This document shows, one piece after another, positions 1,972-39,901 of a stretch of 64,000 nucleotides of DNA. Under the pieces are notes generated by a model. The model saw only the letters and a program-made list of their open reading frames with translations. It was not told the origin of the DNA and made no database searches. The stretch is from Nocardioides daphniae. GTDB lineage: Bacteria; Actinomycetota; Actinomycetes; Propionibacteriales; Nocardioidaceae. How positions within the stretch are numbered: position 1 is the first letter of the stretch; each line of letters starts with the position of its first letter. The translations under genes and the position numbers were made by a program. Location: NCBI RefSeq assembly GCF_004777465.1, contig NZ_CP038462.1, positions 2,914,001-2,978,000 on the forward strand, written 5' to 3'.

Positions 1972-3113
1972 GACAGCGCCCCTCGGTCGGGCACCAGCCG
2001 CGCCACCGTGAACATCACCAGCGCGAACCCGGCCATGATCCCGAGCGGGGCGGCGATGTCACTGAAGCCACCGCCGGCCGAGGTCGCCCCGAGCCCTCGC
2101 AGCAGGGCGGCCACCGGGTTGAGGTCGAGCAGGGTGGAGATGACCGGCGAGGTGGTGACGACCGGGAAGAACGCCCCGCCCCCGATGCCGAAGACGACGG
2201 CGCAGATGGAGGTCCCCACCCCGGCCTGCTCACTGGTCGCGGCCAGCCGGACGATGAGGAACATCAGGGAGGTCGCGGCGGCCGCGGCGCCGACGACCAA
2301 CGCCGCGACGGCGGGGAGGAAGCCGAAGTCGGCGTCGAAGAACCAGCCGCCGACCGTCAGCAGCACCGACGTGGAGAGCACTCCGAGCAGGAAGCTCATC
2401 AAGGCCTTGGCAGCCACGACGGTGCTGCCGGGGATCGGCAGTGAGCGCAGGCGCGCAAGGGTGCCGTCCTCCCGCTCGATGAGCAGCTTGGTCACGCCGA
2501 AGCCGACGGTGAAGAGGAGGAAGAGCCCGGTCTGGCCGGCGACCAGTGCGGCCCCCTGGGCGAGCTGCTCGTCGGCGGTCTCGCCCTCGACCAGCTCGTA
2601 CGTCGTGGAGCTGGTCGCCACGTCCCGCGCGAGGGCCTCGAGCTGGTCGACGGGGACCCCGGCGGAGGCACCGGCGTACGCCGCCACCGTGCCGTGGGTG
2701 AACTGGTCGAGCACCTGCTCCAGGACCGACATCACCACCATCCCCTCGAGCCCCGCGTCGTCGGACTCGAAGACCTGCACGGTCGCCGGGTTGCCCGACG
2801 TGACGCTCTCGGTGAACTTCTCGGGGAAGACCATGCGCAGCGCGGCGTCGTCGTCGCTCTCTGCGACGGTGACGTCGAGCCCGATCTGCTCCAGCTGCCC
2901 GAATGCCTCGACGACCGTGCCGGCCACCTGGTCGTCGGCGGGCGCCTCCACGGCGACCGTGATCGGGGAGAACTCGGTCTCGTCGGTGCTGCCGAAGACC
3001 AGGTTGAAGACGAACATCAGCAGCAGCGGGACGACGAGGCCGAAGAGCAGGACCGACTTGTCGCGTACGCCCTGGACGAGGTCGTTGGCGGTGAGCGTGA
3101 GCAGCGAGCGCAC
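1968..3113 (-). CDS. ABC-2 type transporter permease (first permease of the operon)
   Basis: The GTG start at 3113 lies 5 bases after the stop of the ATPase gene and gives 381 residues beginning VRSLLTLTANDLVQG. An N-terminal helix is followed by an external domain (about 45-190) and a cluster of C-terminal helices, the same plan as the downstream permease, so the pair probably arose by duplication. The reading frame is open far upstream across the ATPase gene, but that extension is a shadow with no protein-like character. It forms an operon with the ATPase upstream and the permease downstream (4-base overlap). The predicted role is a membrane subunit of an ABC exporter of unknown substrate. 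Confidence 0.85.
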   Translation of the reverse strand: MRSLLTLTANDLVQGVRDKSVLLFGLVVPLLLMFVFNLVFGSTDETEFSPITVAVEAPADDQVAGTVVEAFGQLEQIGLDVTVAESDDDAALRMVFPEKFTESVTSGNPATVQVFESDDAGLEGMVVMSVLEQVLDQFTHGTVAAYAGASAGVPVDQLEALARDVATSSTTYELVEGETADEQLAQGAALVAGQTGLFLLFTVGFGVTKLLIEREDGTLARLRSLPIPGSTVVAAKALMSFLLGVLSTSVLLTVGGWFFDADFGFLPAVAALVVGAAAAATSLMFLIVRLAATSEQAGVGTSICAVVFGIGGGAFFPVVTTSPVISTLLDLNPVAALLRGLGATSAGGGFSDIAAPLGIMAGFALVMFTVARLVPDRGALS

Positions 3114-3118
3114 CGGCC

Positions 3119-4066
3119 TCAGTCCCTCAGGGCCTTGCCGGTGACGTGCAGGAAGACCGACTCGAGGTCCGGCCGGGCGATCTCGACGTCGGCCAGGCGT
3201 ACGCCGGCGGCGGTCGCGGTGGCGACCACGTCGGCGACCCGGGCCGGGGCCTCGTGCACGGCGAGGGTCAGCGAGGAGCGGTCGGCGTCGACCCGGTCGA
3301 CCCCGGTGAGGCCGCGCATCTGCGTCGCGGCGCCCTGCAGGTCGCCGGAGCCGCGGAGCCGGATCGTGTCGGTGCCGCCGGTGAGCCGGATCAGCTCGTC
3401 GCGCGTGCCCTCGGCCTGGAGCCGACCGCCGTCGATGATCGCGATGCGGTCGCAGAGCCGCTCGGCCTCCTCCATGTAGTGCGTCGTGTAGAGCACCGCC
3501 ATGCCGGCCACGGCCAGGGACTCCACCGCCTCGAGGATCGAGTTGCGCGACTGCGGGTCGACGCCGACGGTCGGCTCGTCGAGGATCAGCAGTTGCGGCT
3601 GGTGGAGCAGGCCGATGCCGATGTTGAGGCGACGCTTCATGCCGCCGGAGTACTCCTTGGAGCGGTCCTTCGCCCGGTCGGCCAGGCCGATGATCTCGAG
3701 GACCTCCTCGACGCGGGTGTTGAGGGCGCTGCCGCGCAGACCGTGGAGCTTGCCGAAGAAGCGCAGGTTCTCCCGGGCGGTGAGCTCGGGGTAGATGGCG
3801 AGGTCCTGCGGCACGAGCCCGAGGTGACGCTTCGGCTCGACCGCGTCGGGCTTCATCTCCTCGCCGGCGACGTGGATCGTGCCGCCGTCGGCCTTCAGGA
3901 GCCCCGCGACCATCGAAATGATCGTGGTCTTGCCGGCCCCGTTGGGCCCGAGCAGCCCGTAGGTCTCCCCGGGCGCGATCCGGAACGAGACGTCGTCGAC
4001 CGCCGTCAGGTCGCCGAAGCGGCGTACGAGGTGGTCGACGGTGAGTACGTCGGTCGTGCCGGTCAC
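3119..4066 (-). CDS. ABC transporter ATP-binding protein (DrrA-like)
   Basis: This 315-residue ATPase carries all the nucleotide-binding motifs: Walker A GPNGAGKTT (about residue 40), Q-loop region LVPQDL, signature YSGGMKRR, Walker B LLILDEP and the switch His in YTTHYMEEAERL. The C-terminal 90 residues form the extension typical of DrrA/CcmA-type exporters. It is the first gene of a three-gene operon with two ABC-2 permeases and powers export across the membrane. The 132 bases upstream are shared with the divergent MMPL gene and contain the two CsoR-like dyads, so the ABC operon might also be under that control; this is inference from position only. Confidence 0.9.
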   Translation of the reverse strand: MTGTTDVLTVDHLVRRFGDLTAVDDVSFRIAPGETYGLLGPNGAGKTTIISMVAGLLKADGGTIHVAGEEMKPDAVEPKRHLGLVPQDLAIYPELTARENLRFFGKLHGLRGSALNTRVEEVLEIIGLADRAKDRSKEYSGGMKRRLNIGIGLLHQPQLLILDEPTVGVDPQSRNSILEAVESLAVAGMAVLYTTHYMEEAERLCDRIAIIDGGRLQAEGTRDELIRLTGGTDTIRLRGSGDLQGAATQMRGLTGVDRVDADRSSLTLAVHEAPARVADVVATATAAGVRLADVEIARPDLESVFLHVTGKALRD

Positions 4067-4136
4067 GAAGCCTCCCGCGGAGTTGATCTGCCTCTCGGAA
4101 CCCTAGGGCACCGCACCGACGACGCACGCCGGATTC

Positions 4137-4189
4137 TATCCCCCTGGGGGGTTGTTGTAGTCTCTCCCGCATAACCCCCCTGGGGGATA
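4137..4189. promoter_or_regulatory. Paired CsoR-family-like operator dyads
   Basis: Two 17-base near-palindromes, TATCCCCCTGGGGGGTT (4137-4153) and AACCCCCCTGGGGGATA (4173-4189), lie 36 bases apart, and each is almost the reverse complement of the other. The C-tract/G-tract form flanked by A/T resembles operators bound by CsoR/RcnR/CstR-family repressors, which sense Cu(I), Ni/Co or persulfides. The second site ends 9 bases before the GTG of the MMPL gene and overlaps a possible -10 (GATACT, 4186-4191). No csoR-like gene is in this window, so the regulator would act from elsewhere. The assignment is by resemblance only. Confidence 0.55.
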
Positions 4190-4198
4190 CTTGTCTGC

Positions 4199-6355
4199 GT
4201 GAAGGAGTTTCATAAACAGCCCACCCCGGCCCCGGCCGGACACTTCTCCCCCGGCCCACTGGGTCGACTCGGACTGTGGGTGACCACCCACCGACGCCTC
4301 GTCGCCGGGATCTGGGTCGTCCTCGTGCTCGGCCTCGGGATCTCCGCGCCGAAGGTGGAGCACAACCTGTCCGGTGCCGGCTGGCAGGCCGACGGATCCG
4401 ACTCGGTGGCCGCCCGCGAGCTCGCCCGCGAGCACTTCGAGGGCAACACCTCCTCGGCCATCCAGGTGGTCGTGCACAGCGACGACGCTCCCCTCACCGA
4501 GGGCGACGGACCGGCCGTGCTGGCCGACGTCACCAAGCTCCTCGAGGACGAGGACCGGATCTCGACGGTGATCGCACCGATGCCGGGAGCCACCCTCAGC
4601 GAGGACGGGCGTACGGCGGTCGTGCTCGCCGGCGCGGGCGTCGACACCAACGAGATGGTGAAGGTCGCGACCGACATCAAGGAGGAGTTGGGCGACCTCG
4701 GGACCGCGTCGGTCGAGGTGAACCCGACGGGCGCCTCCCTGCTGTGGTCGGACTTCAACGAGGCCAACCTCTCGGCGATGCTCAAGTCGGAGATGCTGAG
4801 CTGGCCGGCCACCATGGCCATCCTCGTGCTGGCCTTCGGCGCGCTGGTCGCCGCCGGCCTGCCGCTCACGCTGACCCTCGCCGGCCTGGCCGCCTCGGCG
4901 GGCTCGCTGGTGCTGCTCAACGAGCTGATGCCGATCTCGATCTGGGCGATGAACTTCGCCATGATGTTCGCGCTCGCTCTCGGCATCGACTACGCGCTCT
5001 TCATGGTCGTACGCTTCCGCGCGGCGCGGATGGGCGCGCAGGTCAGCGCCTCGCGCGCCGTCGCGGAGATGATGGACACCGCGGGCAAGGCCGTGCTGCT
5101 CTCCGGTCTGACCGTGCTGATCTCGCTGTCGGCCGTGATGCTCGTGCCGTCGCCGTCCTTCCGGTCGATGGCCGGCGGGATCATGATCTCGGTGGTCTTC
5201 ATCCTGGCGGCCACGCTGACCCTGCTGCCGCTGGTGCTCTTCAAGCTCGACCACCGGATCAACAAGTTCGCGCTGCCGTGGGTCAAGACCGGCGAGCACC
5301 GCTCCCCCGCCTTCGCGAAGTGGGGGGAGCACCTGTGGCGTCGCCCGCTCGCCTGGGGCATCGGCACCCTGGTCGTGCTCATCGCCCTCGCAGCGCCGAT
5401 CATGAGCCTCAAGACGGCCATGCCGTCGATCAAGGTGCTGCCCTCCGAGGCGAGCGCCCGCGTCGGGTACGACGTCGTGAAGGAGGCCTTCGGTGACGGA
5501 GCCCCCGGCACGCTGCAGGTCGTCGTCGAGGCCGACGAGGCTGACGAGGCTGCCAAGGTCCTGACCGCCGACCGCGGCGTGGCCGGCGCGATGCCCGCCA
5601 TGCCGGCCACCGACGACTCGGACCTGGCGATGATCCAGGCCGTGCCGACCGTGGACCCCTCCGACCCGGCGCTGTCGAAGACCGTCGACCGCCTGCGTGC
5701 CGACCTGCCCGACTCGGCCCTGGTCGGTGGAGCCGCGGTGGAGAACCTGGACCTGAAGGCACAGCTCGACGAGTCGACCCCGCTGGTCATCGGCGTGATC
5801 CTGGTGCTCGGCTTCCTGCTGCTGCTCGTGGCGCTGCAGGCACCGCTGATCTCGCTGCTCGGCACGCTCGCCAGCTTGCTGTCGACGGCTGCAGCCTTCG
5901 GTGTCGCGAAGCTGATCTTCCAGGACGGACACCTGTCCGGGATGCTGGGCTTCGAGTCGCAGGGCTTCCTCGACGCGTGGGCGCCGGTCTTCTTCTTCGC
6001 GATGATCTTCGCGATCGCGATGGACTACACCGTCTTCCTGCTCGCGAGCGCCAAGGAGCACTACGAGAAGTCGGGTGACCCGCGTGAGGCGATGGTCGGC
6101 GCGCTGGCGCACAGCGGCCGCGTGATCTTCGCTGCTGGCGCCGTGATGGTGGCGGTCTTCTTCACCTTCGCGATCTCGGGTCCGATCCCGCCGAAGGAGA
6201 TGGGCATCGTCCTCGGTGTCGCCGTCCTGCTCGACGCGTTCCTCGTACGCCTGGTCCTGCTGCCCGTGCTGCTGCGCCTCACCGGCAAGGCCGCCTGGTG
6301 GACCCCGAACTGGCTCAAGAAGGCGCTCCCCCCGATCACCTTCTCGCACGGCTGA
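4199..6355 (+). CDS. MMPL (RND-type) family transporter
   Basis: The product is 718 residues with the two-fold MMPL layout: a helix near residue 30, a periplasmic domain, helices between about 185 and 350, a second periplasmic domain (about 385-510) and helices from 520 to the end. The motif GIDYALFMVVRFR and the matching AMDYTVFLLASAKEHYEK in the second half carry the Asp-Tyr pairs that relay protons in this family. Such proteins export lipids, drugs or metabolites using the proton gradient. The GTG start at 4199 has no upstream ribosome site but sits 8 bases after a GATACT box, so a leaderless transcript is possible. The double CsoR-like dyad just upstream suggests metal- or sulfur-responsive control. 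A DUF2892 gene follows after 11 bases. Confidence 0.88.
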   Translation: MKEFHKQPTPAPAGHFSPGPLGRLGLWVTTHRRLVAGIWVVLVLGLGISAPKVEHNLSGAGWQADGSDSVAARELAREHFEGNTSSAIQVVVHSDDAPLTEGDGPAVLADVTKLLEDEDRISTVIAPMPGATLSEDGRTAVVLAGAGVDTNEMVKVATDIKEELGDLGTASVEVNPTGASLLWSDFNEANLSAMLKSEMLSWPATMAILVLAFGALVAAGLPLTLTLAGLAASAGSLVLLNELMPISIWAMNFAMMFALALGIDYALFMVVRFRAARMGAQVSASRAVAEMMDTAGKAVLLSGLTVLISLSAVMLVPSPSFRSMAGGIMISVVFILAATLTLLPLVLFKLDHRINKFALPWVKTGEHRSPAFAKWGEHLWRRPLAWGIGTLVVLIALAAPIMSLKTAMPSIKVLPSEASARVGYDVVKEAFGDGAPGTLQVVVEADEADEAAKVLTADRGVAGAMPAMPATDDSDLAMIQAVPTVDPSDPALSKTVDRLRADLPDSALVGGAAVENLDLKAQLDESTPLVIGVILVLGFLLLLVALQAPLISLLGTLASLLSTAAAFGVAKLIFQDGHLSGMLGFESQGFLDAWAPVFFFAMIFAIAMDYTVFLLASAKEHYEKSGDPREAMVGALAHSGRVIFAAGAVMVAVFFTFAISGPIPPKEMGIVLGVAVLLDAFLVRLVLLPVLLRLTGKAAWWTPNWLKKALPPITFSHG

Positions 6356-6366
6356 GAGGCGCCGAG

Positions 6367-6573
6367 ATGAATGTCGACCGCGCCGTGCTCGCCATGGCGG
6401 GCACCGTCACCCTCATCAGCGTGCTGCTGGTGGCCACGGTCTCGAGCTGGTGGCTGCTGCTGACCGGCTTCGTCGGACTCAACCTGCTGCAGTCGTCCTT
6501 CACCGGCTTCTGCCCCGCCGCGATCGTCTTCCGGCGGTTGGGTGTACGCAGTGGGTGTGCGTTCGAGCGCTGA
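6367..6573 (+). CDS. Small DUF2892 (YgaP-type) membrane protein
   Basis: This 68-residue protein has two predicted helices (about 8-27 and 29-46) and the hallmark GFCPAAIVFRRLGVR. DUF2892 is the membrane anchor domain found alone or fused to rhodanese in YgaP-like proteins, and such genes often lie in CsoR/CstR-controlled sulfur or metal loci. It starts 11 bases after the MMPL stop, so the two are probably co-transcribed. The association strengthens the reading of the upstream dyads as a CsoR-family operator. Its biochemical role is not established. The upstream in-frame extension is part of the MMPL shadow; ATG 6367 preceded by GAGAGGCGCCGAG is the likely start. Confidence 0.75.
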   Translation: MNVDRAVLAMAGTVTLISVLLVATVSSWWLLLTGFVGLNLLQSSFTGFCPAAIVFRRLGVRSGCAFER

Positions 6574-6596
6574 GTGAGGCGCTGCTAGTGGCTGAG

Positions 6597-6627
6597 GCCC
6601 CCTCGTCCGGTTGGGCGAGGGGGCTTT
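6597..6627 (+). terminator. Rho-independent terminator after the MMPL-DUF2892 operon
   Basis: A perfect 9-bp stem, GCCCCCTCG / CGAGGGGGC, with a 10-base loop is followed by TTT. It closes the MMPL operon and marks the left edge of the lower-GC NUDIX-helicase insert. Confidence 0.8.
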
Positions 6628-6681
6628 GGTGCTTCGCCCCACTCATCGCGCCTAAGCTGTGGCAAACCGAAGGGGCAGAGC

Positions 6682-7082
6682 GTGAAGAAGCACATCGACG
6701 TGGTCGGAGCAGTCATCCTCCGAGACGGATTGATCCTCTGCGCTCAGCGCGCGGCACGGGAACCTTGGCCGGTTTATGGGAGTTCCCAGGCGGCAAGATC
6801 GAACCCAACGAGTCGCCACGTGCAGCTCTGATCCGAGAGATCCGGGAAGAACTGCTGTGCGACGTGGAGGTCACGGACCAGATCACCACGACTCATCACG
6901 AATACGACTTCGGCGTGGTAACCCTCACGACGTTCTACGGACAGCTGCTGAGTGGTGAACCAGCTCTCACTGAGCACCAAAACATCACATGGCTCCCCCC
7001 GAGCGAGCTACATCGACTGGAATGGGCACCGGCTGACATCCCAGCCGTACGCCTCATCCAGGAGCAACTTGCGTGTCCGTAG
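6682..7082 (+). CDS. NUDIX (MutT-like) hydrolase, frameshifted
   Basis: From GTG 6682 the product begins VKKHIDVVGAVILRDG, and after a break near 6744 it continues in another frame as TLAGLWEFPGG, with NUDIX box G-x5-E-x7-REIREEL and WLPPSEL near the C-terminus. Together these make a complete MutT-like domain of about 130 residues, the family that hydrolyses (d)NTP derivatives such as 8-oxo-dGTP. The break is explained by an extra GC in CGCGCGGC (6740-6750), either an assembly error or a slippage mutation. The 3' end overlaps the helicase gene by 10 bases, which implies translational coupling and a shared function. GC is visibly lower than in the flanks. It may sanitise nucleotides, or act as signal or effector in a defence module with the helicase. 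Confidence 0.75.
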
Positions 7083-10000
7083 ACCCGTTTTGGCCTTCGA
7101 ACGACCTGACACTGGACCTTCACCACGGCTTTCTGAGCGCTGAGACATCGGCTCCTCGTCTACGCCACCCGCACGTCGTCCTCAACGAGGGGACCGAAAC
7201 AGCTCTCCGCTCCATCCTGGAATCTCTGGCGAGAGCTGATCGCTTTCTCTTCTCCGTCGCCTTCGTGACGCCCGGAGCGATCGCTGCCCTCAAGCAACAT
7301 TTCCGAGATTTCCAGGGCCAGGGAACGATCGTTACGTCTACCTACCTCGGCTTCAATCCCCCTGCGGCCTTTGCCGAACTGCTCCTCCTCACGGAGGACG
7401 GCATCGACGTGCGGCTCCATCGATCGCCGGGGTTTCATCCGAAGGGCTACATCTTCCAGTCCTCCGATGCGGTCACCGCGATGGTGGGAAGCTCGAATCT
7501 GACCCCGGCCGCACTGCAACGGAACCACGAGTGGAACCTCAAGGTGTCCGCGTCTCCGGAGAGTGGTCTCGGCCAACAATTCCACCGCATCATGTCGGCC
7601 CAGATCGCGCAATCCGTGCCGATCACCGCAGAGTGGCTCGAGCAGTACACGGCTGCCTATCAAGCGCCGAGTCCGCGAGGTGGCACAGAAGTACCCCCAC
7701 CGAGCGTGCCCGAGTTGCCGTCCCCGCCCCCGTTTGAAGCTCTTGAAGGCGACGGGGCCGCCACGCCCATCACAGACGTTCTCCCCGCCGGGCACCTGCC
7801 CGAGACCGGCACTATCACACCCAACGCGATGCAGAAGACCGCGTTAGAGGCCATTGCTGGCGTGCGCGCAGCTGGCGAGCGCCGCGCGATCGTGGTTTCG
7901 GCAACTGGGACTGGCAAGACCATCTTGTCTGCGCTCGCGGTGAAGGACGCAGAACCGAGGCGCATGCTGTTCGTGGTCCACCGCGAACAGATCCTCGACA
8001 AGACGATTGCTGAGTACCGACGCGTGCTCGGCGGCGCCCCCGGCGACTTCGGCAAGCTCGCAGGATCAACCAGGCAAGCTGACCGACGTTACGTCTTTGC
8101 GACGGTTCAAACCCTGAGCCTGCCTCACGTGCTCGAGGGCTTCCACCCGGACGCATTCGACTTCATCGTGTTTGACGAGGCCCACCGTGTGGCCGCGGCG
8201 TCGCATCAGAAGGTTCTCAACCACTTCACCCCCGAGTTCGCCCTCGGAATGACTGCTACGCCTGAACGCATGGACGGCCGGAACGTCTTCGAGATCTTCG
8301 ACTTCAATGTCCCGTACGAGATCAGGCTCAACCACGCCCTCGAAGAGGGCATGCTCTCGCCGTTCCACTACTACGGCATCGCAGATGTCGAGTTCGACGA
8401 TGGCACTACGACCGACGTCCACACCAGCCTGGCAGGCCTCGTCTCCTCCCAGCGGGTGGAGCACCTTCTAGATGCCCTGCACTCCTACGGCCAGGCGGGA
8501 GTTCCACCGCGGGGATTGATCTTCTGTAGCCGGAACGAAGAGGCTCGGGCCCTCAGCGCGGCCCTGAATAGCTCACTCCTGCGCGGCAAACGTCTCCGCA
8601 CCGCGGCGCTATCGGGCGCCGACTCGGTCGAATCGCGCGAGCGCACCGTTCGACGCCTAGAATCCGGCGAGCTCGACTACGTGCTGACCGTCGACATTTT
8701 TAACGAGGGTGTCGACATCCCCTCGATCAACCAGATCATCATGCTGCGGCAGACACAGTCTGCGATTGTCTTCGTGCAGCAACTTGGACGCGGACTTCGC
8801 CTTGCACCAGGCAAGGAGTACGTGGTGGTCATCGACTTCATCGGCAACTACGCCAACAACTACCTCATCCCAATTGCGCTCTTCGGCGACGAGTCCTTGA
8901 GCAAGGAGTCACTGAGGAAGAACCTCATCGCGGCGGAAGAGCAGGGTTCTCTGCCCGGACTGTCGAGCGTCCAATTCGATCGGATCTCTCAGGAACGAGT
9001 GCTGCAATCGATCGTCGACACCGACCTGCAGAGCTCCACCAAGCTCAAGTTCGCCCTCGAGCAGATGAGGAACCGAGTCGGACGTGCCCCGACGCTGTGG
9101 GACTTCTACCGATTTGAAGGCACGGATCCAGTCATTCTGGCCACCAAGGAAAAGCACTACCTGGAGCTCACCAGAAAACTGCTCGAGGTTGACTACAAGC
9201 TCACTCATCAAGAAGACCGCGCCCTCGCCCTCCTGACGCACGAAGGGTTCACCGCACGTCGCGCCCACGAATTCCTTGTGCTGGAGCAACTGCTGACGGG
9301 AGAGGTCCACACGATTGACGAGCTGGTAACGCTCTGCGCACAGGAGGGCCTTGCCACCACAGCCGATCGGGTGCAGAGCGTCATCGACACGTTCACTCTG
9401 GTCGAGCACGCCAAGGTCGATCTGGATCGCTACGAGGCGCCCGTTGCCGAACAGGACGGTGACCTGGTCGTAGTGGACGCCGACGTGCTCTCCTCGTACA
9501 CCTCCAACCCGATCTTCGCCGCGGCCGTCAATGACCTGATCAAGACGGGCAAGGCCCTGACGCGCGAGCGCTACCTTCCCGACCGTCCGTTCACACCGGG
9601 CACCCAGTACGGGCGGAAGGAGGTCACACGACTCCTGCACCTCCCGCGAAAATGGACATCGACCCTGTATGGCTACAAGGCAGACGCCACCCGGAAGGTG
9701 TGCCCAATCTTCGTCACATTGCATAAGGGCGAGGACGTATCGGCCAGCACCGCCTACGAGGACGCTCTCATCGATCGCAACTCGATGGTTTGGTTCACCA
9801 AGAGTGGCCGGACGACGAAGAGCCCCCTCGAGTCAGCCATCATCGCCAACGACTACCAACTCGACGTCTTCGTCAAGAAGTCCGACTCTGACGGGCGCGA
9901 CTTCTACTATTTAGGGACGGCGAAGGTCACGCGTGCCGAGGACTCGACGATGAAGAATGACAAGGGGAAGAGCCTGCCCGTCGTTAAGACAGTCCTCACT

Positions 10001-10129
10001 TTCGAGCAGCCAATTCAGCAGGCACTCTTCGACTACTTCCATCCCCACGGTGACCGCCTGAGCCACTACGCCCCCAGCCTCTTTGCCCGATGCGTCCCCG
10101 TGGGGTCCACGACGAAGCACTCACCGTGA
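7073..10129 (+). CDS. PLD nuclease - SF2 helicase - DUF3427 fusion protein
   Basis: The 1018-residue protein has three parts. Residues about 35-160 are a phospholipase-D-like nuclease domain with H122-x-K124 and GSSN at 139-142. Residues about 245-600 are an SF2 helicase with Walker A SATGTGKT (276-283), DEAH (368-371), MTATPER and motif VI QQLGRGLR (569-576). Residues about 815-990 are DUF3427, recognisable by YGRKEVTRLL, ST-YGYK, CPIFVTLHK and DVFVKKSD-GRDFYYLG. The GTG start at 7073 has AGGAG 7 bases upstream and overlaps the NUDIX stop. Proteins of this plan occur sporadically in bacteria, often with a MutT-type gene, and are suspected anti-phage or DNA-processing enzymes; I infer a role but cannot prove one. 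Val-Arg pairs here use GTG-CGG/CGC rather than the GTA-CGC common in neighbours, and GC is lower, which supports transfer. The frame is intact. The last 64 bases overlap the convergent DUF222 gene. Confidence 0.88.
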   Translation: MSVDPFWPSNDLTLDLHHGFLSAETSAPRLRHPHVVLNEGTETALRSILESLARADRFLFSVAFVTPGAIAALKQHFRDFQGQGTIVTSTYLGFNPPAAFAELLLLTEDGIDVRLHRSPGFHPKGYIFQSSDAVTAMVGSSNLTPAALQRNHEWNLKVSASPESGLGQQFHRIMSAQIAQSVPITAEWLEQYTAAYQAPSPRGGTEVPPPSVPELPSPPPFEALEGDGAATPITDVLPAGHLPETGTITPNAMQKTALEAIAGVRAAGERRAIVVSATGTGKTILSALAVKDAEPRRMLFVVHREQILDKTIAEYRRVLGGAPGDFGKLAGSTRQADRRYVFATVQTLSLPHVLEGFHPDAFDFIVFDEAHRVAAASHQKVLNHFTPEFALGMTATPERMDGRNVFEIFDFNVPYEIRLNHALEEGMLSPFHYYGIADVEFDDGTTTDVHTSLAGLVSSQRVEHLLDALHSYGQAGVPPRGLIFCSRNEEARALSAALNSSLLRGKRLRTAALSGADSVESRERTVRRLESGELDYVLTVDIFNEGVDIPSINQIIMLRQTQSAIVFVQQLGRGLRLAPGKEYVVVIDFIGNYANNYLIPIALFGDESLSKESLRKNLIAAEEQGSLPGLSSVQFDRISQERVLQSIVDTDLQSSTKLKFALEQMRNRVGRAPTLWDFYRFEGTDPVILATKEKHYLELTRKLLEVDYKLTHQEDRALALLTHEGFTARRAHEFLVLEQLLTGEVHTIDELVTLCAQEGLATTADRVQSVIDTFTLVEHAKVDLDRYEAPVAEQDGDLVVVDADVLSSYTSNPIFAAAVNDLIKTGKALTRERYLPDRPFTPGTQYGRKEVTRLLHLPRKWTSTLYGYKADATRKVCPIFVTLHKGEDVSASTAYEDALIDRNSMVWFTKSGRTTKSPLESAIIANDYQLDVFVKKSDSDGRDFYYLGTAKVTRAEDSTMKNDKGKSLPVVKTVLTFEQPIQQALFDYFHPHGDRLSHYAPSLFARCVPVGSTTKHSP

Positions 10130-11487
10130 CGAGTGCGCCACCAGTACGTGCCTGGTCCCAGCTGGACGACTTCCACACCGGCATGGGTCTTCCAGCGGTG
10201 GTGGCGTCGGTTCAGGGGTTGCGAGTTGTGGGTGCCGGTCTGATCTGGCGGCCCGTGGGCGACCCACGGCTCGGGATGGTCGAAGTCGACGCGACGACCA
10301 CTCGATCCGGTCGACCAGGGTGCACGATCGCCGCCGGCCAGCAGCCAGATTCGCTCACGAAGCGACTCCGGATGCTCGTACGCCGTCACCCGGACCGCTT
10401 CGCGCAGGTCGATGACCGGCTTCACGGTCACGTGCGCGTGACGCAGCAGGTCGACCAGTTGGCTGGCGGCCACGGGACCGTGGTCCTCGACTCGGGCCAC
10501 CGAACGAGCCGGATCAGCCAGCGCCTTGTCGGTCACGTGCACGTAGAGGCACGAGCTGGGCCTGCGGGTCGGGTCGATCGAGCGCAGGGCGTCGAGGAGG
10601 TGGCGCGGGAAGGCGGTGGTGCGCGAGGTCGCCAGATCCTCAGCCGGTTCGGCCACCTCGTCCGTCCGCTCAAGGCCATCGGCGAGCAGCAGCTCCAACA
10701 GCTCCGCCGGTCGCGCCAGCCAACCGAACGCCTCCGACCGCAGCACGTCGGCGCTGGGCTGCTCGGCGGCAGGGACCCCGGCGTCGTCGAGCCTCCCGCG
10801 CAGGATCTCGGCGACCCGTTGCACCATCGCGTCCACCCACACCGCGTCCCCGGCCTGCACGCGAGCAATAACGCAGCGCAACCCGGCCTCGTCGGTCCGC
10901 GAGGTCGTCACATAACGCCGCGCCTTCTCCACCGCCACGCGGTGGGCATGGGCCACCGGGTCGGCCTCGATCACCTTGGCCCGGGCAATCTCGATGACCC
11001 GCGAGGGCGACTCCCCCACGATCGCCCTCGACACGGCAGCGTCGACCACACCGACGGTGTCGACTCCGAGGCTGCGGGAGATCACCGCGACCTTGCGCGC
11101 GACCCACGGCTCAGCGTCCAGGGACCTCACCAGCGCCCAGGTGCGAGGCAGACGGCGCTGGAGATCCAGCACGTCAGCCATGGCAGCGCGCGCCGTCATC
11201 CAGCCGACCTGGCGCACTGCGGCCAGATCCCCGAGGCGCAGGTCGCGCACGAGCGGCGTACCTTCGCCTCCCACCTCGATCAGTCGGTCGAAGGGTGAGG
11301 CCGTCGGGTCGTCGAGTGGGTCTGATCCGTGCAGCAGGGCCCACTGGGCAACGAGCTCCAGGTCGCGCACCTCGGCCGCCCGACGGAAGTCCAGGGCGTC
11401 GACCAGCTGCGCCAGCACCTCAGCGGCCCTCGCCACCTCGGGGGCACCCTCGACGGCCTCGAGAGGGGCAAGGGAAGTGGTGGGCAT
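10066..11487 (-). CDS. DUF222 / 13E12-repeat HNH endonuclease
   Basis: This 473-residue protein has the DUF222 region over about residues 20-330 and a C-terminal HNH-like motif (about 405-445): DFDHPEPW, then G-T-HNSQPLNRRHHRWKTH. The family is abundant and multicopy in actinobacteria (13E12 repeat proteins in mycobacteria), and some members are known LexA targets. A near-consensus SOS box lies 12-27 bases before the ATG at 11487, so damage induction is likely. The 3' end overlaps the transferred helicase gene by 64 bases, which suggests the foreign segment was placed right against it. The substrate and purpose of these nucleases are not established. Confidence 0.85.
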   Translation of the reverse strand: MPTTSLAPLEAVEGAPEVARAAEVLAQLVDALDFRRAAEVRDLELVAQWALLHGSDPLDDPTASPFDRLIEVGGEGTPLVRDLRLGDLAAVRQVGWMTARAAMADVLDLQRRLPRTWALVRSLDAEPWVARKVAVISRSLGVDTVGVVDAAVSRAIVGESPSRVIEIARAKVIEADPVAHAHRVAVEKARRYVTTSRTDEAGLRCVIARVQAGDAVWVDAMVQRVAEILRGRLDDAGVPAAEQPSADVLRSEAFGWLARPAELLELLLADGLERTDEVAEPAEDLATSRTTAFPRHLLDALRSIDPTRRPSSCLYVHVTDKALADPARSVARVEDHGPVAASQLVDLLRHAHVTVKPVIDLREAVRVTAYEHPESLRERIWLLAGGDRAPWSTGSSGRRVDFDHPEPWVAHGPPDQTGTHNSQPLNRRHHRWKTHAGVEVVQLGPGTYWWRTRHGECFVVDPTGTHRAKRLGA

Positions 11488-39431: not shown

Positions 39432-39901
39432 GCAGCTCATCGGACGCCGGGACGCTCGACCGCTTCGTCGTCGTCCCGGCGTCGTACGTCTACCTGCTGC
39501 GTGAGGGCGAGTCGGGCACCGAGGTGCTCCTGCAGCAGCGCGGCGACGTGCCCTACATGGCCGGCCACTGGGCTGCCGGGGCCGCCGGGCACGTCGAGCG
39601 CGGCGAGGACGCCTTCAACGCGGCCCGGCGCGAGCTGCGCGAGGAGCTGGACGTGAGCGCCGAGCTGCAGTTCGAGTTCACGATGCAGCGCACCCAGCAC
39701 GCCGACGCCATCGACGAACGGGTCGACTTCTTCTTCACCGCGCGTGCCTGGGAGGGCGAGCCCCGGGCGGTCGAGGGGGCCAAGTGCGCCGGTCTCGGGT
39801 GGTTCGGGCTGGACGAGCTGCCGAGCCCGATGGTTCCGCACGAGGCGCACGCGCTGGCCCACCTCGGGAGCGGCCTGCCCTACCTCACCTTCGGCTTCTG
39901 A
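39428..39901 (+). CDS. NUDIX hydrolase
   Basis: The 157-residue protein has a complete NUDIX box, G-H-V-E-R-G-E-D then A-A-RRELREELDV, preceded by VLLQQRGDVPYMAGHWAAGA and ending LAHLGSGLPYLTFGF. This subgroup is common in actinobacteria and is close to dNTP/NDP-sugar pyrophosphatases. The start GTG 39428 overlaps the upstream stop by 4 bases. It is intact, unlike the NUDIX gene at 6682. Confidence 0.85.
   Translation: MSSSSDAGTLDRFVVVPASYVYLLREGESGTEVLLQQRGDVPYMAGHWAAGAAGHVERGEDAFNAARRELREELDVSAELQFEFTMQRTQHADAIDERVDFFFTARAWEGEPRAVEGAKCAGLGWFGLDELPSPMVPHEAHALAHLGSGLPYLTFGF

Follow-up and report, generated by a model that had tools for sequence, protein, structure and literature searches.

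The DNA considered in this study is a stretch of 64,000 nucleotides (the window) from Nocardioides daphniae, taken from the forward strand of contig NZ_CP038462.1, positions 2,914,001 to 2,978,000, and part of a 3.56-Mb genome in one contig. At 6682-10129 of the window lie two overlapping genes, a small one of the Nudix family and a large one whose product resembles SauUSI, the Staphylococcus aureus enzyme that founded its family and restricts modified DNA (PMC3874153, PMC7913695). I will refer to the two genes together as the module, and to other loci, genomes and plasmid records by numbers beginning with L, G and H, respectively. The features of the module are these:

6682..6759, + strand: N-terminal piece of the Nudix gene, GTG start, its frame meeting a stop after 49 codons (compare the intact P0003 and P0004)
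6744..7082, + strand: main piece of the Nudix gene, in another frame, with the Nudix box and a C-terminal WAPAD motif (PADLOC PDC-S07, E 1.3e-41)
7073..10129, + strand: SauUSI-type Type IV restriction enzyme, 1018 amino acids, GTG start (PADLOC PDLC03658; PDB 7clg, 638 bits; Foldseek 7clg)
7100..7672, + strand: phospholipase D (PLD)-type nuclease domain, residues 10-200, aligned to SauUSI 6-197
7436..7444, + strand: predicted catalytic H122-x-K124, aligned to SauUSI H119/K121 and invariant in 88 of 88 aligned proteins
7814..8803, + strand: superfamily 2 (SF2) ATPase, ResIII at 248-399 and Helicase_C at 467-577, with Walker A K282 T283 and Walker B D368 E369 (Pfam, alignment)
9233..10039, + strand: DUF3427 (coupler end and SRA-like reader), residues 721-989 (Pfam, E 4.4e-62)
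9668..9793, + strand: residues aligned to the 5-methylcytosine pocket of SauUSI, Y866, Y868, F880, V881, D897 and W907 (alignment, PMC7913695, conservation)

A preliminary description of the stretch, made from its letters, recognized in the large gene (7073-10129, + strand) a fusion of 1018 residues that joins a PLD-type nuclease, an SF2 helicase and DUF3427. Pfam bears this out, with matches to PLDc_2, ResIII, Helicase_C and DUF3427 (profile positions 2-279 of 280). That the fusion might be a new and untested one is a reading that has to be given up. The best PADLOC model is mREase_IV PDLC03658 (E 4.9e-190), and the structure of SauUSI (PDB 7clg) is the top match of the protein both in sequence (638 bits) and, by Foldseek, in fold, where the match adds little, the structure model being weak (mean predicted local distance difference test score 68.7, predicted template modelling score 0.40). 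The likeness to SauUSI extends over nearly the full length of the protein, with 39.9% identity over residues 10-689 to an S. aureus record, and takes in the N-terminal PLD domain with its HxK motif, the SF2 Walker A and B motifs and motif VI, the coupler and the SRA-like reader.

The residues that matter most in SauUSI were followed through an alignment of 88 SauUSI-type proteins, consisting of the window's own and those of 87 loci (L077, whose match is split in two, was excluded, and the duplicate records L051 and L053 were retained). The HxK pair corresponds to the catalytic H119 and K121 reported for SauUSI (PMC7913695). K282, T283, D368 and E369, together with R573 and R576 of motif VI, are present in all 88. 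In the part of the same paper on the 5-methylcytosine (5mC) pocket, the reader is described as recognizing 5-hydroxymethylcytosine (5hmC) besides 5mC (PMC7913695). Of the pocket residues, Y868, F880, V881, D897 and W907 align with SauUSI Y831, F841, I842, D858 and W868 and are found in 86, 87, 84 (V or I), 78 (E in nine others) and 87 of the 88 proteins, while M829 of SauUSI is replaced by Y866, a tyrosine in 73 of the 88. By its sequence, then, the large gene product is a SauUSI-type restriction enzyme (Type IV, 5mC-dependent), a member of a known family, and it is predicted by homology to cleave DNA carrying 5mC or 5hmC at the expense of ATP; SauUSI is reported to cut its target in vitro with ATP (PMC7913695).

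The small gene is broken. Read from the GTG at 6682, its frame ends after 49 codons, and the Nudix box sits in a different frame, within the open reading frame (ORF) 6216-7082; a Nudix profile likewise matches twice, at 6685-6759 and at 6744-7073, the two matches being in different frames. The reading of an intact gene is thereby rejected, and with it the single MutT-like ORF of the preliminary description, which missed the break. An intact version of 133 amino acids, P0003, comes from a sister record, whose longest contig measures 3,611,206 bases as against 3,558,816 for the window's genome. The window agrees with it at 99% over residues 24-133, from which the break must be an error of assembly or else a strain-specific lesion of recent date. 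A programmed frameshift shared by relatives was also considered and rejected: the gene occupies a single frame in eight other loci of the genus (by tblastn coordinates) and in the intact P0003. All comparisons of the small protein reported below were made with P0003, the copy from the other record.

The nearest characterized relative of the Nudix partner is, on sequence, Escherichia coli NudG (Orf135; PDB 2rrk), a pyrophosphohydrolase of 5-methyl-dCTP and CTP, and not MutT. The best NCBIfam model for P0003 is that of NudG (PRK10546), with 111.7 bits against a curated cut-off of 156, so that the protein is NudG-like without being filed as NudG; two MutT models give 74.2 bits of a required 148 and 67.4 of a required 97.9. 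PRK10546 came first in four of five Nudix proteins tested, PRK08999 coming first in that of L073. Amongst known structures, the best match of P0003 is 5x1x (E 9.4e-44), followed by NudG 2rrk (4.8e-25) and MutT 1mut (1.6e-9). The 5x1x protein, entitled "Mutator mutT protein", is from another species than the window, S. aureus. The translation of the S. aureus Nudix gene (WP_000755954), which adjoins a SauUSI homologue, is identical, letter for letter, to the 127 residues of 5x1x shown. The openly licensed literature searched for 5X1X together with MutT yielded no paper on it.

Single residues give the same picture. P0003 has in common with NudG the Nudix box, W33, H99 and D119, and it lacks the Asn119 of MutT, which I take to be a functional site of that enzyme as an 8-oxo-dGTP diphosphatase. 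Among 91 Nudix sequences linked to SauUSI-type genes (one of them a solitary-type second copy, of L022), W33 is found in 90, H99 in 91 and D119 in 90, as in NudG, where MutT has L, G and N. Counting also the copies linked to a sister branch of the restriction enzyme (7/7), other copies from Nocardioides (22/22) and those from a staphylococcus-related family typified by L103 (30/30, loci being available for 30 of its 33 genomes), aspartate occupies the position of MutT N119 in 149 of 150 sequences. In the literature NudG appears as a 5-methyl-dCTP pyrophosphatase (PMC5389931), with a tabulated kcat/Km, in the table's units, of 1,300 for 5-methyl-dCTP as against 47 for CTP (PMC5158307), and for mycobacterial MutT2, likewise a near relative, 5-methyl-dCTP is reported to be the substrate of highest activity (PMC10742078). 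From its residues and relatives, the Nudix partner probably hydrolyses cytosine nucleotides of the 5-methyl-dCTP kind.

How constant is the pairing of the two genes? Contigs were searched with an alignment of 14 large proteins, giving 574 candidate loci, mostly from Actinomycetota and Bacillota, and the best 80 were scanned with a Nudix profile built from 120 homologues (L051 and L053 amongst them are the same records as the Nocardioides loci L023 and L025). Adjacency was counted by profile search because gene calling had missed the Nudix gene at 13 of 29 loci. A Nudix gene adjoins the restriction gene in 77 of the 80, a figure that is not an unbiased rate, the 80 being the loci most like the window. 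It lies upstream and co-directional in 71 (in one of these, L066, at a distance of about 1.1 kb), downstream and co-directional in two, and downstream and convergent in four. Since order varies, even within Domibacillus (L080 as against L078 and L083), the link outlives rearrangement. The three misses are L095 and L096, which stop just past the restriction gene, leaving the downstream side unseen, and L103, which has full flanks and no Nudix gene in them; the genomes of all three contain a close Nudix. Elsewhere in the 80 loci the profile met one further match, a weak one of 29 bits in L107, and chance adjacency is therefore unlikely. Of the first 12 rows of a table of 80 (which counts the window's two Nudix pieces separately), 11 show a 4-base overlap between the end of the Nudix gene and the restriction gene, read from its closest in-frame start. 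The window itself contains, at 39518-39790, a weak Nudix-like match, also of 29 bits.

The pair recurs in other samples as well, being present at 8/8 of the other SauUSI-type loci of the genus and at 4/4 of those (the window's own included) among 296 genomes sampled from the phylum and searched by DUF3427 alone; in the other three of these the Nudix gene is upstream once and downstream convergent twice. A homologue of SauUSI in an S. aureus record also has a Nudix gene directly upstream, from which the window differs in the broken frame of the partner. (In the S. aureus record L115, at 2501-5338, the match to the SauUSI homologue is in two pieces.) In a plasmid collection, 16 records gave a match, and 14 regions were viewed, H14 and H16 being left out. 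Five of the 14 have an annotated Nudix gene beside the match (Latilactobacillus, Lactiplantibacillus, Limosilactobacillus, Hymenobacter and S. aureus). Eight of the remaining regions are partial, distant matches, in which no Nudix gene was found by scan (H7, H8, H10, H11, H12) or by annotation (H13, H15), H9 being unannotated and unscanned; H4, like H13 and H15, was judged on annotation alone. The fear expressed in the preliminary description, that homologues might always sit in housekeeping contexts without a MutT partner, proved unfounded for the SauUSI branch and partly justified for the Nudix gene, which is often solitary.

The reading that I prefer, and to which I would give about an even chance of being right, is that the locus represents a horizontally acquired restriction unit of the SauUSI type, composed of a 5mC-dependent nuclease and a Nudix enzyme that removes 5-methyl-dCTP and so guards the DNA of the host. 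The part assigned to the large enzyme draws on its homology to SauUSI, for which there is published biochemistry, and the purpose assigned to the Nudix enzyme is conjectural. The SRA-like reader would flip 5-methyl- or 5-hydroxymethylcytosine out of incoming DNA, the ATPase would translocate, and the PLD nuclease would shred the DNA. Modified cytosine, freed by the breakdown of DNA or made by a phage, might be phosphorylated and built into the chromosome, where it would create a site for self-cutting. By hydrolysing 5-methyl-dCTP and 5-hydroxymethyl-dCTP, the small enzyme would keep the host chromosome unmarked, and a phage whose DNA is made with modified cytosine would be deprived of its supply by the same activity.

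Several observations weigh against this reading, besides the choice of the 80 loci, the cut-off that P0003 fails to reach, the preference of the L073 protein for another model and the broken state of the window's own copy. NudG acts on CTP and dCTP too, according to the title of O'Handley 2001. SauUSI alone is reported to restrict modified phage lambda in E. coli (PMC3874153), although the genome of that host contains its own NudG. In a Fusobacterium record, the last of the 14 plasmid-collection regions viewed, a SauUSI-type enzyme is present but a Nudix of this kind is missing at 1e-10. In the L103 family, none of 26 loci has a Nudix gene in the flanks examined, which are short (at least about 0.85 kb upstream and at least 0.58 kb downstream); the Nudix gene is nevertheless present in 33 of its 33 genomes, seven of which lack a SauUSI match at 1e-40, and strict co-occurrence of the two genes in these genomes was looked for and not found. 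Within Nocardioides, 38 of 196 genomes have a close Nudix (at least 142 bits, the next score being 101), and nine of the 38 also have the SauUSI-type enzyme, leaving 29 without. Finally, the phylum sample includes 23 further DUF3427 loci, several of them fragments or cut by contig ends, and neither these nor four in the genus (L305-L308) have a Nudix gene beside them, from which the proposition that every PLD-helicase-DUF3427 enzyme has the partner was rejected. Such sister-type enzymes have a C-terminus of the reader type and mostly do without the Nudix, which speaks against a guard being strictly required.

The 29 loci of the genus with a close Nudix and no SauUSI-type enzyme were examined over flanks of about 6 kb (the downstream side of L260 is cut by a contig end), branches of the restriction enzyme being assigned by a profile of my own. 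An enzyme of the sister branch lies directly downstream in seven (L239, L240, L243, L244, L246, L261 and L264), 3.5 kb off in one, and nowhere in the flanks of 21. In the four cases examined with PADLOC (L243, L246 and L261 from this set, and L305), the enzymes have the same three-part architecture and the same label, mREase_IV, as the SauUSI type, but the model PDLC03659 fits them far better than the SauUSI-type one does. The branch matches DUF3427 in the C-terminal part only and is usually without a Nudix neighbour. A methylpurine-DNA glycosylase family is represented in 17 of the 29 loci and a class II ribonucleotide reductase family in 18, each identified by Pfam on one representative, from L242. 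Some of the seven sister-linked loci are near the reductase family too. The seven look like another union of a Nudix with a Type IV enzyme, apparently independent of the first. Given the solitary copies and the L103 family, the Nudix gene is not exclusive to SauUSI-type enzymes and is therefore a more widespread gene of the deoxynucleotide-pool type, carried along by them.

Three of the alternatives draw on these same facts. In the first, the module is directly anti-phage: the Nudix would destroy modified dCTP made by the phage, so that attack comes at the level of nucleotides as well as DNA, with self-protection of the host secondary. The enzymology would be the same NudG-type chemistry as in the guard, and recognition of 5hmC as well as 5mC by SauUSI (PMC7913695) would suit it, but the solitary copies, without restriction enzyme and often near ribonucleotide reductase, point rather to hygiene of the nucleotide pool, and I consider this account unlikely, though worth keeping in mind.

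The second alternative makes the Nudix a housekeeping sanitizer of 8-oxo-dGTP or other oxidized nucleotides, loosely linked to restriction. Its presence in every genome of the L103 family is as one would expect of such an enzyme, as are the 22 of 29 loci of the genus without a directly adjacent PLD-helicase enzyme and the name 8-oxo-dGTP diphosphatase borne by some homologues. The near-constant aspartate in place of MutT N119 in four groups of sequences speaks against it, as do the greater closeness to NudG and a linkage in 77 of 80 loci that persists as gene order changes. I regard it as improbable.

In the third, the pair travels together for historical reasons, with no functional coupling. 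Tight overlaps can be inherited, and the DUF3427 loci of phylum and genus without the Nudix, like the 26 of the L103 family, would cause no surprise. But position and strand have changed repeatedly with the link kept, a Nudix has apparently joined the sister enzyme separately in seven Nocardioides loci, and genome G091 has retained a copy of the solitary type along with its linked copy, all of which makes simple hitch-hiking very hard to credit. The second copy in G091 (L022:13523-13906) lies about 1.8 kb upstream of the Nudix-SauUSI module. In a tree of Nudix sequences, linked copies from Nocardioides are interspersed with those of other genera; of the 22 solitary copies, 20 fall together with a support (SH-aLRT) of 88, which is not firm; G091 has one copy of each kind, and E. 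coli NudG sits on a long branch inside the solitary group. The tree is weak (129 columns, 11 firm forks among 102 inner branches), and only its coarse grouping was used.

Some Nudix enzymes act on nucleotide messengers. That the Nudix makes or removes a messenger controlling the nuclease, an idea of the preliminary description, is nonetheless barely plausible: the sequence is NudG-like (no search for messenger-making genes was made), the annotations of neighbouring genes in the plasmid regions viewed mention no cyclase (no profile search for cyclases was made), and SauUSI is reported to cleave in vitro given ATP and its target (PMC7913695). The defence role that the same description assigned to the pair retains what the founder's restriction of modified DNA and the recurrence of the pair lend it, and loses the nucleotide signal.

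To return to the nuclease and its guard, the scheme may extend to the family at large: SauUSI-type restriction would normally have two layers, a reader and shredder of 5mC and a guard that excludes 5-methyl- and 5-hydroxymethyl-dCTP from host DNA. The guard would take the role that a methylase has for ordinary restriction enzymes, self and non-self being told apart at the nucleotide pool, the partner having been overlooked since SauUSI was studied as one polypeptide. This generalization I offer tentatively, and on balance I rather doubt it.

The surroundings of the module bear on how it was acquired. They comprise:

4199..6355, + strand: MMPL transporter, the left neighbour, matched at 1e-200 in 97 of 196 genomes of the genus
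6367..6573, + strand: small ORF after the MMPL gene, which it follows in 10 of 11 relatives examined
6591..6630, + strand: terminator-like stem-loop upstream of the module, with a short T run (RNA fold -35.6 kcal/mol, z -4.1)
10066..11487, - strand: convergent ORF of 473 amino acids, overlapping the end of the module by 64 bases, without Pfam match at 1e-3

Most of what the preliminary description said of this layout stands. The large gene begins at 7073, before the Nudix frame has ended with its stop at 7080-7082, an overlap of the 10 bases stated there, and the right end runs 64 bases into the convergent gene. GC content is 0.615 in the helicase gene and 0.596 in the Nudix region, compared to 0.702 in the whole window, and the scarcity of the GTA-CGC codon pairing is seen in the hexamer GTACGC, which occurs once on the + strand and not at all on the - strand within 6682-10129, as against 51 and 48 times in the window. 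The terminator on the left is a mixed case: the stem-loop folds well, but its T run is short and a consensus terminator scan called none at about 6591-6630. Defence genes were not recognized among the immediate neighbours (the MMPL transporter, the small ORF and the ORF without Pfam match). Nor do any of the 11 relatives examined for the MMPL gene and small ORF belong to the nine genomes, of 196 in the genus, that have the SauUSI-type enzyme. Because of the low GC content, the occurrence in 9 of 196 genomes and the mixing of linked Nudix copies across genera, albeit in a weakly resolved tree, the module was probably acquired horizontally, as the preliminary description proposed.

The search of defence catalogues that it had suggested gives a divided answer. 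PADLOC recognizes both genes, the large one as mREase_IV (PDLC03658) and the small one as the candidate PDC-S07 (PDLC04899), which matches P0003 at E 7.9e-53. But the latter model is unspecific, also matching solitary copies and, from E. coli K-12, NudG (E 4.8e-44), whose gene is not next to a restriction gene, and MutT (E 6.3e-39), in the regions L110:3491-3895 and L111:245-631; alone it defines no defence system. Its breadth may explain why PDC-S07 was reported in 99.06% of Enterobacter genomes (PMC12851794), and a lone call of this kind, such as surveys produce, says little about defence. In a paper on Streptococcus thermophilus, PDC-S07 figures as a table entry (PMC11514479).

Of 123 loci scanned, four have as the module's immediate neighbour a pyrophosphohydrolase of another family, MazG-like (an identity checked with Pfam on L123 only): L123:5314-5634, L312:5427-5738, L030:9089-9343 and L054:8931-9182. 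These belong to two lactobacillus plasmids, Cellulomonas and Microbacterium, and I count them in favour of the guard. In two more loci, L062 and L107, such a gene is within about 4 kb. Human DCTPP1, which is called MazG-like, has been tied to 5-methyl-dCTP (PMC4491611, PMC10742078).

Pieces of the association have appeared in print. A figure legend in a paper of 2020 on EVE domains identifies small "DNA repair" proteins beside Streptococcus homologues of SauUSI as MutT homologues, the legend giving no mechanism (PMC7641849), and a study of 2026 on Streptococcus suis reports PDC-S07 and Type IV restriction co-localized, within 20 genes, in 23 of 23 cases, again with no mechanism in the account of that result (PMC12813430). 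In a paper in eLife of 2020, DUF3427 is predicted to bind modified DNA, and Nudix domains are mentioned apart from it (PMC7159879). SauUSI itself is credited with being a major obstacle to gene transfer in S. aureus and treated as a one-protein system (PMC7913695). In the searches made of the openly licensed literature on SauUSI and Type IV or modification-dependent restriction with Nudix or MutT, no statement of the idea of a nucleotide guard was met. The locus is thus of a known kind, its partner gene has scarcely been remarked on in the literature searched, and what is new is probably the likely job of the partner. If the proposal is true, an enzyme of the nucleotide pool would suggest how bacteria with SauUSI-type restriction avoid damage to themselves when methylated nucleotides are recycled, and it would directly predict hydrolysis of 5-methyl-dCTP by the protein whose structure is already solved as 5x1x.

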